Part shown: piece after piece, positions 3,415-37,289 of the stretch
Position numbering within the stretch: the stretch's first letter is position 1
Layout: every line of letters begins with the position of its first letter
Assembly: GCA_002171515.1 (NCBI GenBank)
Contig: NHEP01000091.1
Coordinates: forward strand, 1 to 39,941
DNA from: a bacterium TMED88
GTDB taxonomy: Bacteria; Myxococcota_A; UBA9160; UBA4427
Direction: 5' to 3'
Length of the DNA: 39,941 nucleotides
Program-made: the position numbers and the translations under genes
The notes under the pieces: generated by a model
What the model was told of the DNA's origin: nothing
The model's database searches: none
The model's input: only the letters and a program-made list of their open reading frames with translations

Positions 3415-3987
3415 TTACCGCTGTGGGAAGCCGAGGGCCTTGAGTTGCTCCACCATGTCTTCGCCGTGGGAAGACGGATTGACGCCCTTGTCGATCGACC
3501 GGATGATACCGCTCTGATCGATATAGAAGGTCCAGCGCTTTGGGTACCGACCTCCCGCGCTGACGACCCCATAGGCTTGGGCCGCTTTTCGGTTGGGGTC
3601 ACTGAGAACCGGGAAGGCAGCGCCGACTGATTCAGCGAAAGCCCGGTTGGCCTCTGTATCATCGAGGCTCGCCATCGCGTAAGTGACGTCGAATTCGGCG
3701 AGCGCTGTCTCGCTGTCACGCAGCGAGGTGAGTTCCGCCGTTCAGCCAGGTGTGAAAGCCTTGGGAAACCAAGCGAGCACTAAGCCCTTGGAATCGGCGA
3801 GAATGCCTTCAAGGGTGTAAGTCTGGCCGTCGCTCCCAGAAAGTGAGAAACCAGGTGCTGCGTCTCCCACCCGAAGCGTTTGCGCGTATGCCCCGCCTGC
3901 CCAGACGAAACAAAGAGCCAGGATCGAGGAGGTCAGGGCCAAGCCCAAGGAACGAGATCTAGCCCGAAAGAATTTTGAAGGTTTCAT
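3415..3987 (-). CDS. Secreted selenocysteine-containing peroxiredoxin (BCP/PrxQ type), TGA = Sec
   Basis: Read through one in-frame TGA (3742-3744), this frame gives 190 residues. An ATG at 3985-3987 follows GAGGG. Residues 1-37 are a signal peptide (basic start, hydrophobic core, cleavage after AYA), so the enzyme acts outside the cytoplasm. The mature part follows the thioredoxin-fold peroxiredoxin order: GDAAPGFSL, then the active-site loop FPKAFTPG-U-TAEL with U at residue 82. In BCP/PrxQ proteins this is the peroxidatic cysteine of TPGC. Then come SLRD, VLSDPNRKAAQAYGV and the end segment WTFYIDQSGIIR. The frame stays open and family-like on both sides of the TGA, which is not what decay would leave. 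A hairpin fitting a bacterial SECIS follows the TGA. The mature chain has no Cys. Likely reduces peroxides. A Cys-to-stop pseudogene is the alternative, but is unlikely. Confidence 0.9.
3709..3727 (-). promoter_or_regulatory. Candidate bacterial SECIS hairpin
   Basis: On the coding strand CTCGCTG (3727-3721), loop CGTGA (3720-3716) and CAGCGAG (3715-3709) form a perfect 7-bp stem. The stem begins 14 nt after the TGA, so the apical loop begins 21 nt after it. Known bacterial SECIS elements lie inside the coding region just after UGA, with a small apical loop about 16-37 nt downstream and a G in its first two positions. The loop CG... satisfies this. It would bind SelB with Sec-tRNA. Confidence 0.8.
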
Positions 3988-4100
3988 TGGTCCCTCAATT
4001 TGGCGCCTACTCAAGTGAAGACTCCGCCCATAGGATAGCCAAGGATTTTGACCGAGGCGTCGGCATCGCCCTGAGGCGGGCATGGGAGGCCACTGAAGCT

Positions 4101-22594: not shown

Positions 22595-24778
22595 ATGAAT
22601 CGATCGATCGTGTTTTTTGGGCCAAGCCGTCTTTTGATCTCAGCAGGTCTAATGCTCGCTGTAATGGGGTGTTCAGGTCATCCCGGTCCGGCCCCGGAGT
22701 CCGCTTCGGATCAGTCATCGGAGGCCGCACGGAAGGTTGACGCCCAGCGAGTTGCGAATGCCGATGCCACCCCCGAAGAATGGCTGACGCATGGGCGGAC
22801 CTATCGCGAAGAGCGCTTCTCGCCCCTTGATCAGATCCGTGCTGGCAATGTGTCCGACTTAGGCCTGGCTTGGTTTGCCGATCTCCCGACTCGTCGCGGG
22901 ATCGAAACCACACCGCTGATGGCCGATGGTCGCCTCTATGTCACGGCTGCGTGGGGACATGTCTTGGCTTACGATGCTCGAACGGGCGAGTTGCTTTGGC
23001 ATTTTGATCCCAAGGTGCCGAAAGCCTATGCACGCCACGCGTGCTGTGATGTCGTCAATCGAGGAGTAGCGCTTTGGGGTGACCGGGTTTATGCCGCGAG
23101 CCTGGATGGCCGCCTGCGCGCTTTGGATCGAGACAACGGACAAGTCATCTGGGAAGTAGACACCCGTTTGAACGATCACGATTCTTATACCATTACCGGT
23201 GCACCCCGGGTCGTGAACGGAAAGGTGATTATCGGGAATGGCGGCGCCGAAATGGCGGTTCGGGGTTATGTCACCGCGTATGATGCCCAAACCGGCGACG
23301 AGGTCTGGCGCTTTTTCACCGTTCCGGGAGACCCTTCGAAGGGTTTCGAAGATAAAACGCAAGAGTGGATCGCGTCGACTTGGACCGGAGAATGGTGGAA
23401 GAATGGTAAAGGGGGCGGGACGGCGTGGGATTCCTTTGCCTTCGACCCCGATTTGAACTTGCTTTATATCGGAGTGGGCAATGCGGCGAGCTGGAACCGA
23501 AAGGTGCGAAGCCCTGAAGGCGGGGACAATCTTTTTGTTTCTTCGATCGTTGCGGTCGACGCGGACACAGGCGCCTACCGCTGGCACTACCAGACGACAC
23601 CCGGTGATCACTGGGACTACACAGCGACCCAGCACATGATTCTCGCTGAGATTGCAATCAATGGTGGTCAGCGCGAAGTCATCATGCAGGCGCCAAAAAA
23701 TGGCTTCTTCTACGTCCTGGATCGTCAGACGGGGGAGCTGCTATCGGCAGAAAAATATATGCCTGTGACCTGGGCGACGCATGTCGACCTTGAGACGGGC
23801 CGACCCGTCGAAGCAGCCGGCGTTCGCGATACCGATGAAGATCGGCCCATCGTTCCGGGACCGAGTGGATCCCACAATTGGCACCCTATGAGCTTTAGTC
23901 CGGATACGGGTTATGTCTACATACCCGCCAAGGTTTCGAGCGGCGTCTATCGAGATGACTTTGTGACCCAGCGACGCAAAACGATCTGGACTGTGAACTA
24001 TGAAGTTTCCAAAATGATCGCTTTGCCCGACGAGATGCCTTTCGAAGAGAGAGCAGCGACCGGGGCAGTGTTGGCCTCTGGAATCTTGATCGCTTGGAAT
24101 CCGTCGACGCGTCAGGAGGTTTGGCGAGTCCCGACCGGTTTTTATTCGGGGGGCGGCTTGCTATCGACCCATGGCAACCTGGTTTTTCAGGGCGATTTGT
24201 CCGGTCAGTTCAACGCGTACGCGGCGGACACAGGGGAGACCCTCTGGAGCTACCCCACCCAGGGCGGCATTATGGGCTCTCCCATCAGCTACTCCCTGGA
24301 CGGTGAGCAGTACGTTGCGGTGGCCCAGGGCTGGGGGGGCGAGAGCAGCCTGCCTTTTGGCGCAATCAGCGGTCCCCAAGGGATGGTGAACATTAGTCGT
24401 CTCTTGGTCTTCAAGCCCGGTGGGCAGGCGAAGCTGCCCATCGTCGAGACCCAGGAGGAAACCCTCGAGGCGCATGCCCTCGCCGCGGCTTCTCCGGAAA
24501 CCATTGAAAACGGACGAGCGCTCTACAACACCTACTGCTCCGTCTGTCATGGGGGGAATGCCGTCAGCGGTGGGCTCGTCCCGGATCTACGCTACCGGAT
24601 CGGGGCCTTGGCCCCGGCCTGGAGGGCCATTGTGATTGAGGGCGCCTTGGTTGAGGCCGGGATGCCGGGCTGGGCGCCTTTCATGTCTCCCGAAGAGGCC
24701 GATGAGATCTTGGCCTACGTGGCCCATGAGGCCACCCTTGGGCATCAACGGGGTGAGAAGCGCGTCGTTCGCCGGTAA
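22595..24778 (+). CDS. PQQ-dependent quinohaemoprotein alcohol dehydrogenase (lipoprotein)
   Basis: 727 residues. The signal sequence ends in a lipobox (AVMGC, Cys26), so the enzyme is exported and probably lipid-anchored. An eight-bladed PQQ propeller follows (about 60-590) with repeated WxW-type tryptophan-docking blades, the vicinal cysteines C150-C151, and WDYTATQ with catalytic Asp341. The residue two after it is Thr343, not the Asp of lanthanide enzymes, so calcium is the expected cofactor. A C-terminal cytochrome c domain binds haem through CSVCH (648-652), with a Met ligand in the GMPGWAPFMSPEEAD part. It oxidises alcohols or similar substrates and passes electrons through its own haem, as in quinohaemoprotein ADHs. 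No pqq biosynthesis genes are nearby. Confidence 0.95.
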   Translation: MNRSIVFFGPSRLLISAGLMLAVMGCSGHPGPAPESASDQSSEAARKVDAQRVANADATPEEWLTHGRTYREERFSPLDQIRAGNVSDLGLAWFADLPTRRGIETTPLMADGRLYVTAAWGHVLAYDARTGELLWHFDPKVPKAYARHACCDVVNRGVALWGDRVYAASLDGRLRALDRDNGQVIWEVDTRLNDHDSYTITGAPRVVNGKVIIGNGGAEMAVRGYVTAYDAQTGDEVWRFFTVPGDPSKGFEDKTQEWIASTWTGEWWKNGKGGGTAWDSFAFDPDLNLLYIGVGNAASWNRKVRSPEGGDNLFVSSIVAVDADTGAYRWHYQTTPGDHWDYTATQHMILAEIAINGGQREVIMQAPKNGFFYVLDRQTGELLSAEKYMPVTWATHVDLETGRPVEAAGVRDTDEDRPIVPGPSGSHNWHPMSFSPDTGYVYIPAKVSSGVYRDDFVTQRRKTIWTVNYEVSKMIALPDEMPFEERAATGAVLASGILIAWNPSTRQEVWRVPTGFYSGGGLLSTHGNLVFQGDLSGQFNAYAADTGETLWSYPTQGGIMGSPISYSLDGEQYVAVAQGWGGESSLPFGAISGPQGMVNISRLLVFKPGGQAKLPIVETQEETLEAHALAAASPETIENGRALYNTYCSVCHGGNAVSGGLVPDLRYRIGALAPAWRAIVIEGALVEAGMPGWAPFMSPEEADEILAYVAHEATLGHQRGEKRVVRR

Positions 24779-34837: not shown

Positions 34838-34889
34838 TGACATTTCTTTGGGGGCTTGATCCGGCGGGTGCAACGACAGGAGGTTGTCC

Positions 34890-37289
34890 GTGTCGCTGGA
34901 AGAAGGATCCGTGAAAGACCCCGTCTGCGGAATGCAGGTTGCCTCGGATGCGGCGAGTCACTTCGACTGGGTCGGGCAGGTCTATCGCTTCTGCTCTGAT
35001 CGCTGCCGCGATCGTTTTGCATCCGATCCCGAGGCCTTTCTCAATCCGCAGCCCGCGCTTCCCTCGCCCTCGGGCACCCGCTACATCTGCCCCATGCACC
35101 CCGAGGTGAATGAGTCTGAGCCGGGGGACTGCCCGGACTGCGGGATGGCGCTCGAACCCCTGATTCCTGTTGCGACTGCACGCTGGACTTGTCCGATGCA
35201 TCCCGAGATCGTTGAAGACGGTCCTGGCGATTGTCCGCTTTGCGGGATGGCTCTTGAACCGATGGAAGTGTCCTCTGAGCCGAACGCAGAGCTCATCGAC
35301 ATGTCCCGTCGGTTTGGATGGGCAGTGCTTCTAACGCTTCCTGTTTTTGGCTTAGCGATGGGAGAAATGATCCCGGGTAACCCGTTGAACGAGTGGCTCG
35401 GCGCGAAACCGCGTAGCTGGGTCGAGGGAATCCTCGCGACGCCGGTCGTTCTCTGGTGTGGGGCGCCTTTCCTCGTTCGGGGTTGGAACTCAATTCGTAC
35501 CCTCCACCTGAATATGTTCACGTTGGTGGCCATCGGGAGCGGTGCGGCCTGGGCATACAGTGTTTTTGCGACGCTGCGACCCGGTCTATTTCCGCCCTCT
35601 TTCCACGGGCCAGATGGATCCGTGGCCGTTTATTTCGAGGCGGCCTCGGTCATCGTCACCTTAGTCTTGCTGGGACAGGTGCTTGAGTTGCGGGCGCGAG
35701 ACCGGACCGGGGAAGCCATCCGATCGCTTTTGGGGTTGGCGCCGAAAACGGCTCGACGGGTTGATCCTCAAGGCGAAGAAGAAGACGTGGCGCTGGACCA
35801 GGTGATTGCGGGAGACCGGCTTCGCATTCGCCCTGGCGAGAAGGTGCCGACCGACGGGATTGTGATCGATGGGCAAAGCACCGTCGATGAGTCGATGATC
35901 AGCGGGGAGCCGGTGCCTGTGCTGAAGCAGGCGGGTGATTCTGTCACCGGAGCAACGGTGAATGGAACGGGCTCCCTGCTGATTCGAGCGGAACGGGTGG
36001 GCTCTGAGACAATGCTGTCTCAGATTGTCCAGATGGTGGCGGAAGCCCAGCGCAGTCGTGCGCCGATCCAAGGCATTGCCGATGCCGTGGCGAGTTGGTT
36101 CGTGCCCATTGTCCTTTTGAGTGCCGCCTTGACGTTTGGCGTGTGGGCTCTCTATGGCCCCGAGCCTCGCCTGTCCCATGCGTTGATTGGCGCTGTGGCG
36201 GTTTTGATCATTGCTTGCCCTTGTGCCCTCGGGCTTGCAACGCCGATGTCCATCATGGTTGCGACCGGTCGCGGTGCCTCTCAAGGCGTCCTATTTCGAA
36301 ACGCCGAAGCCATCGAGCGCTTTCGCGAGGTTGATACGGTCGTCGTCGATAAAACGGGAACCTTGACCGAGGGGCGACCGAGTCTTGTGGCAATCCGCTG
36401 TAACAAAGCGTTCAACGAGTTGGAGCTGATCGAGCTGGCGGCGGCCCTGGAACGATCGAGCGAACACCCCTTAGCGGCCGCCATTGTGGAGGGCGGCCGT
36501 GAGCGAGGCGCTCGGGCTCTGGAAGCAACCCATTTCGAGTCTTACACCGGGCAGGGCGTTGTGGCCGAAGCCGACAACCGGGCGATCGCCGTCGGCAACG
36601 AGGGCCTCATGGAGCGTCTCGGTGTCGACATCACGGTTTTGATGGCCGAAGCGGATGAAATGCGAGCGTCGGGGCAGACGGTGATGTTTGTTGCCGTTGA
36701 TGGTGAGCCCGGGGGATTGCTCGGCGTGACCGACCCCATCAAAAAATCTTCCCCCGAGGCCGTGGAGGGCCTCCACCGCGAGGGGCTTCGAGTCATCATG
36801 CTGACGGGCGATACAAAGAAAACCGCTGAGGCTGTCGCCGGCCGTTTGGGTCTCGACGATGTTGTCGCGGGTGTTCTGCCGGAGCAAAAAGCTGAGGTCG
36901 TTCAAGCCCTTCAGGCCAAGGGACATGTTGTTGCCATGGCGGGGGACGGTGTCAATGACGCGCCCGCATTGGCCCAAGCTGATGTGGGGGTCGCCATGGG
37001 GACGGGCACGGATGTTGCGATGGAGAGTGCCGGCGTGACGCTTTTGCAAGGCGACCTGAGAGGGATCTTGCGTGCACGTCGACTGAGCTCTTCCGCGATG
37101 CGGAATATTCGTCAGAATCTTTTCTTCGCCTTCGTGTACAACGCCGTCGGCGTGCCGATTGCGGCCGGTGTTCTCTACCCCTCTTTCGGCATCTTGCTCA
37201 GCCCAATGATCGCTGCTGCGGCGATGAGTCTGAGCTCTGTCTCCGTGATCAGCAATGCTTTGCGACTCCGCCGCGTTTCGCTTGGATGA
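34890..37289 (+). CDS. copA: Cu+-exporting P1B-type ATPase with YHS and two heavy-metal-binding domains
   Basis: 799 residues from a GTG preceded by AGGAGG at 6 nt. The N-terminus has a YHS domain (DPVCGM, then [10 protein letters not shown], residues 10-50). Two heavy-metal-binding repeats follow, of the form CPMHPE...GDCPxCGMALEP (about 67-90 and 101-124). There is no classic CxxC HMA domain. Eight membrane spans follow, with the transport site CPC (443-445), the phosphorylation site DKTGT (Asp487), the HP motif [21 protein letters not shown] and a terminal [16 protein letters not shown] helix that marks the Cu+ group. It pumps Cu+ (or Ag+) out of the cytoplasm. Regulator or chaperone genes are not visible next to it. 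Confidence 0.96.

Follow-up and report, generated by a model that had tools for sequence, protein, structure and literature searches.

Two adjacent open reading frames on the minus strand of a bacterium TMED88 contig (NHEP01000091.1) raise the question of whether the TGA between them breaks a peroxiredoxin gene in two or encodes selenocysteine (Sec, U). The window, that is, the whole stretch of DNA analysed here, is 39,941 nucleotides long. A program-made ORF list shows the two frames at 3742-3987 and 3415-3675, and standard annotation would accordingly yield two broken pieces, as the original prediction had said. When the TGA is read through, the two fragments form one protein: the frame 3418-3987 has 190 codons and is open except for the single TGA, and the stretch between the fragments (3676-3741) belongs to the same frame. 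An intact gene that standard annotation would split in two is recovered in this way. The reading that we consider very probable is that of an exported peroxiredoxin in which UGA 82 is decoded as Sec by way of SelB, with a mature form of the 1-Sec kind and an outside donor that reduces Sec82. The gene and its signals are as follows.

3415..3987, minus strand: complete selenoprotein peroxiredoxin gene, 190 aa, from ATG 3987 to the TAA stop at 3415-3417
3992..3996, minus strand: Shine-Dalgarno-like GAGGG 5' of ATG 3987, from the sequence
3742..3744, minus strand: in-frame TGA encoding the peroxidatic residue, selenocysteine 82, from the translation and the homologue alignment

In the sister species, the start codon is aligned with ATG 3987 and the same TGA is present. 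Between the two genes, dN/dS is about 0.03 upstream of the TGA and about 0.15 downstream, values which indicate that purifying selection acts on both halves and that neither is decaying.

Residues 40-164 of the read-through product match the Pfam family AhpC-TSA (7.9e-27; 94 bits, with the cut-off at 26), and Redoxin is matched at 8.9e-19; both matches span the TGA. The context of the TGA is PKAFTPG-U-TAE, a BCP/AhpE-like peroxidatic position, and the corresponding PxxxTxxU motif has been described (PMC13188914). Among 55 aligned homologues, P75, T79, G81, residue 82 (U or C) and R151 are invariant. Two of these residues can be located as further active-site features.

3751..3753, minus strand: Thr79, active-site threonine of the TxxU motif, invariant in the alignment
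3535..3537, minus strand: Arg151, invariant and perhaps the active-site arginine that peroxiredoxins conserve

Thr79, residue 82 and Arg151 together make up what we take to be the pattern expected of a peroxiredoxin active site. In the AlphaFold model, where pLDDT is about 98 for most of the mature domain, residue 82 sits close to the beginning of helix 80-91. A Foldseek comparison with Bcp1 gives 1e-15, and the top hits in the PDB are Sulfolobus Bcp1, with 33% identity, and Mycobacterium tuberculosis AhpE, with 34-35%.

The codon at the position of the TGA was compared across 110 homologous loci, some of which are one gene reached by two tools (the distinct proteins number 95). It is TGA in 80, TGC in 25, TGT in 5 and nothing else; residue 82 is thus Sec or Cys throughout, with no other residue, and the TGA sits at the catalytic position as had been claimed. 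On the homologue tree, the Sec/Cys state switches at least eight times. Among related genomes, SelA is encoded by 33 of the 34 in which the best close homologue carries one TGA and is missing from three of the eight in which it is stop-free, a modest association (one-sided Fisher p = 0.018, with kinship and completeness ignored). Plasmid records contain only distant homologues, at less than 60% identity.

A hairpin lies shortly downstream of the TGA, within the coding sequence.

3709..3727, minus strand: bacterial SECIS hairpin, CUCGCUG (3727-3721), loop CGUGA (3720-3716), CAGCGAG (3715-3709)

The 7-bp stem starts 14 nt past the UGA, there are 21 nt from the UGA to the loop, and G is the second loop base. 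In the bSECIS model of PMC13188914, the loop lies 16-37 nt after the UGA and is 3-9 nt long, the stem has at least 4 bp, and a G is found within the first two loop positions; the hairpin in the window agrees with this model in stem, loop size, loop position and loop G. Given the high GC content here, its folding energy alone is ordinary (z = -0.59); the case for a SECIS element rests on position and covariation. An Rfam scan of the window matched no RNA family. Of 65 distinct TGA sequences, 62 have the loop at +21, whereas its positions are scattered in the Cys forms. Pairing is kept in about 95% of the TGA homologues, with double compensatory changes, and RNAalifold predicts the hairpin for the Sec forms and no structure for the Cys forms. 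At the closing pair, 36 of the 64 Sec sequences have G-C and 26 have C-G, and only 7 of 29 Cys sequences form the pair at all; 63 of the 64 Sec sequences are paired against 32 expected by shuffling, which ignores relatedness, although the Sec/Cys state changes repeatedly on the tree. Elsewhere in the stem, the Sec sequences have C-G (54) or U-A (8) as the third pair and U-G (33), G-C (15) or U-A (12) as the sixth.

Because the hairpin is coding, the protein sequence follows its pairing. Coding variants that keep the stem include LRDS (CTG CGT GAC AGC), LRES (CTC CGT GAG AGC) and FREN (TTC CGT GAG AAC); at 3709-3727 of the window and at the same site in the homologous loci L016-L125, these alternate in step with compensatory base pairs. 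The SECIS hairpin appears to dictate these residues, a clear case of RNA structure shaping a protein beside its active site.

The machinery for Sec insertion can be looked for in the host metagenome-assembled genome. The assembly encodes full-length SelA (2.5e-127), SelB above the curated cut-off and with its C-terminal winged-helix domains, and a tRNA-Sec with anticodon tca (UCA), which was not found within the window itself. The proposed check for selA to selD and tRNA-Sec thus turned up everything except selD. SelD was not found in the assembly, which is 80.9% complete; since SelD is above its cut-off in 26 of 30 genomes of the family, sister species included, incompleteness is the likely reason. 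Two AIR-synthase-type matches in the genome were rejected as SelD, one being ThiL-like and the other another member of the superfamily.

Two other loci of the same genome contain Prx-like proteins with an in-frame TGA. At L130 (G000:C99, plus strand, at about 1500-1840 of the locus), a UxxC protein (FYRSAVW-U-PPCWTQL) has a stable hairpin after the TGA and is likely a second selenoprotein; at L133 (G000:C17, minus strand of the locus), the motif is HW-U-PYCVAEL, likely marking a third. L133 adjoins a DsbD-like gene, identified by eye and seemingly a transmembrane reductase, which is no evidence for the donor of the window protein. Among read-through extensions of the other genes in the window, which were viewed without comparison with families, no second selenoprotein stood out.

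These data bear directly on two readings in which UGA 82 is not Sec. A Cys codon (TGC or TGT) could have mutated or been misread to TGA, leaving two broken fragments; the change is a single base, and standard annotation would indeed give two ORFs. However, the same TGA recurs in 80 of the 110 loci, in several phyla, a SECIS hairpin is tied to it, both halves of the gene are under purifying selection, and the genome encodes Sec machinery. The conserved TGA and the covarying hairpin refute this reading, to which we give next to no weight, and the many other TGA loci together with that covariation likewise exclude a sequencing error at 3742-3744. Genome-wide reassignment of UGA, for example to Trp (code 4) or Gly (code 25), would keep the frame open just as well, but it is refuted by neighbouring genes: TGA terminates many genes in the window and is a normal stop here. 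Moreover, homologues substitute only Cys, and a tRNA-Sec with a UCA anticodon is encoded along with SelA and SelB. We regard reassignment as the least probable reading of all. With UGA 82 taken as Sec, SelB would bind the hairpin 15-33 nt past the UGA and direct decoding, a step for which the sequence, the covariation and the presence of the machinery argue.

The second part of the prediction was that the protein has a signal peptide.

3883..3987, minus strand: predicted Sec-type signal peptide, residues 1-35, MKPSKFFRARSRS-LGLALTSSILALCFVWAGGAYA, cleavage before Q

The first 35 residues combine a basic n-region with a hydrophobic core of 2.2 KD units and a cleavage-like A-Y-A site, and AlphaFold confidence is low across them. 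Among the distinct homologues, a comparable hydrophobic N terminus is found in 62 of the 66 with Sec and 26 of the 29 with Cys; all three signal features occur together in 57 and 22 of them, respectively, as judged by a simple hydrophobicity rule. As controls for this rule, eight presumably cytosolic proteins of the window fall below the hydrophobicity threshold, and a TonB-dependent receptor and a PQQ enzyme, also of the window, reach it. The rule thus supports the predicted signal peptide in the window protein and in most homologues, and we infer export to the periplasmic or outer-membrane side, where the signal peptide would be removed.

The sole cysteine of the precursor, C26, is within the signal peptide and would leave with it, so that the predicted mature protein would contain Sec and no cysteine at all. 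In homologues from Acidobacteriota, Planctomycetota and Verrucomicrobiota, a cysteine follows the U or C at +4 (UTAEC); in the branch of the window protein, this position is Leu, occasionally Ala, Met or Ile, and the state of the +4 cysteine need change only once on the tree. The branch without it (SH-aLRT 92) has 32 members, 31 with Sec and one with Cys, whereas the other Cys forms all keep the second cysteine (28 of 28). Since all this comes down to a single evolutionary event, it can do no more than hint at a link between having Sec and losing the second cysteine. Sec may have let the lineage discard its partner cysteine, giving an exported, thiol-free 1-Sec peroxidase whose recharging would fall to a dedicated periplasmic donor, to small thiols or to sulfide; we hold this idea tentatively, at slightly less than an even chance. 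The sole Cys form in the cysteine-less branch is L035 (G041:C225), PKAFTPGCTAEL. It keeps a SECIS-like remnant, CGCTG-CGCGA-CGGCG, the G041 genome has SelA, and the locus looks like a recent switch from Sec to Cys. Having switched between Sec and Cys at least eight times and changed its second cysteine once, the subfamily offers a natural experiment on the benefit of selenocysteine outside the cytoplasm.

By analogy, we expect the window protein to use the catalysis of a 1-Cys peroxiredoxin, with Sec taking the role of Cys, as a 1-Sec analogue of enzymes such as AhpE. Positioned close to the beginning of helix 80-91 together with Thr79 and Arg151, the Sec82 selenolate would, if the family mechanism applies, reduce H2O2 to water or organic hydroperoxides to the alcohol and become a selenenic acid. 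Because the mature protein would have no cysteine, an internal selenosulfide is impossible and an outside donor is required; candidates are sulfide, small thiols and thioredoxin-like proteins of the periplasm. The search for a conserved gene neighbourhood found none beyond the sister species, and hence the context gives no clue to the reductant. An AI-2E-type transporter gene upstream and the convergent MFS gene represent genus-level synteny.

Two other readings accept the selenoprotein but not all of this account. In one, the protein stays in the cytoplasm or is anchored in the membrane by an uncleaved N terminus, as might be argued from the rule-based signal peptide call and from two Sec homologues without a clear signal peptide; the positive n-region, hydrophobic core and AYA cleavage-like site of the window protein, and the full set of criteria in most Sec and Cys homologues, make this improbable. 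In the other, which we find about equally unlikely, the protein is not mainly a peroxidase and serves instead in thiol-disulfide or selenenyl exchange, as a sensor or as a sulfide/persulfide enzyme. The peroxiredoxin signature P-x3-T-x2-U ... R is invariant, known 1-Cys peroxiredoxins are peroxidases, and thiol exchange proteins of the same fold usually keep CxxC or UxxC, all of which argue for a peroxidase. On the other side, the mature protein lacks any cysteine that could resolve an oxidised Sec, and sulfide chemistry is plausible, given that H2S reduces oxidised Prx6-type 1-Cys peroxiredoxins (PMC12697902), a reaction that says nothing about the donor of the window protein. The two Sec homologues mentioned above are L024 and L038 (G021 and G006); in place of a typical signal peptide they have a segment such as SSTALFGGGPDALAV, and they are perhaps cytosolic members.

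Sec peroxiredoxins (COG1225/Bcp, TxxU) are an established selenoprotein family (PMC9312934, PMC1794560, PMC1088965, PMC2398784). They are entered as COG1225 in PMC9312934; 43 Sec-containing peroxiredoxin genes were reported from the Sargasso Sea (PMC1088965) and 253 from GOS data (PMC2398784), and Deltaproteobacteria have them too, with three in Anaeromyxobacter (PMC1794560). The window protein belongs to this kind, being of the same superfamily with Sec at the peroxidatic position, and adds a predicted signal peptide and a cysteine-free predicted mature form. The main texts of the literature searched contain no discussion of export or of loss of the second cysteine in Sec peroxiredoxins, although supplementary lists may hide exported members. 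The claim that exported BCP-type selenoproteins are rarely described needs the qualification that Sec peroxiredoxins of the Bcp/TxxU kind are already established. The core finding is of a known kind, and the apparently exported and cysteine-free branch with its covarying SECIS is a modest addition.

Compared with BCP/PrxQ proteins (NF006960, NF053650; 3drn Bcp1, 4gqf PrxQ), the window protein is alike in sequence and fold, but it scores only 68.7 bits against a cut-off of 140 for NF006960 and 50.9 against 260 for NF053650, lacks the resolving cysteine, is predicted to be exported and has Sec for Cys. In the 2-Cys PrxQ/BCP subtype, the resolving cysteine lies five residues after the peroxidatic residue; the mature window protein has no cysteine, and the sister branch has one at +4 instead. 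The proposed BCP/PrxQ type is therefore right in part: the AhpC-TSA match and the structural match to Bcp1 agree with it, whereas the PrxQ mechanism does not carry over to a protein that has no second cysteine and has AhpE among its nearest structures. AhpE (1xvw/4x1u), a 1-Cys enzyme that works without an internal resolving cysteine, is among the best PDB matches in sequence and structure, and the window protein differs from it by Sec for Cys and by the predicted signal peptide. PrxU of Eubacterium acidaminophilum (NF040737) is also a selenocysteine peroxiredoxin, but at 36.2 bits against a cut-off of 270 the window protein falls outside that subfamily. Prx-like UxxC thiol:disulfide oxidoreductase selenoproteins, with the two host candidates L130 and L133, share the superfamily and the use of Sec; their motif is the thioredoxin-like UxxC, in contrast to TxxU in the window protein. 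No NCBIfam model reaches its cut-off on the window protein, and the models that it matches are also those matched by other members of the wider subfamily. The locus points to a whole subfamily of exported Sec peroxiredoxins in Myxococcota, Acidobacteriota, Planctomycetota and Verrucomicrobiota that has no curated model of its own.

Further peroxiredoxin genes, about 35% identical to the query and with one TGA each, are present at, for example, G067:C429, G066:C152 and G064:C298, suggesting a second Sec-Bcp type in genomes such as these. Elsewhere in the window, the plus strand encodes a PQQ-type alcohol dehydrogenase (22595-24778) that starts with a lipoprotein-like signal peptide and ends in a cytochrome c domain, and a P-type metal ATPase with N-terminal YHS and heavy-metal-binding (HMBD) domains (34884-37289).
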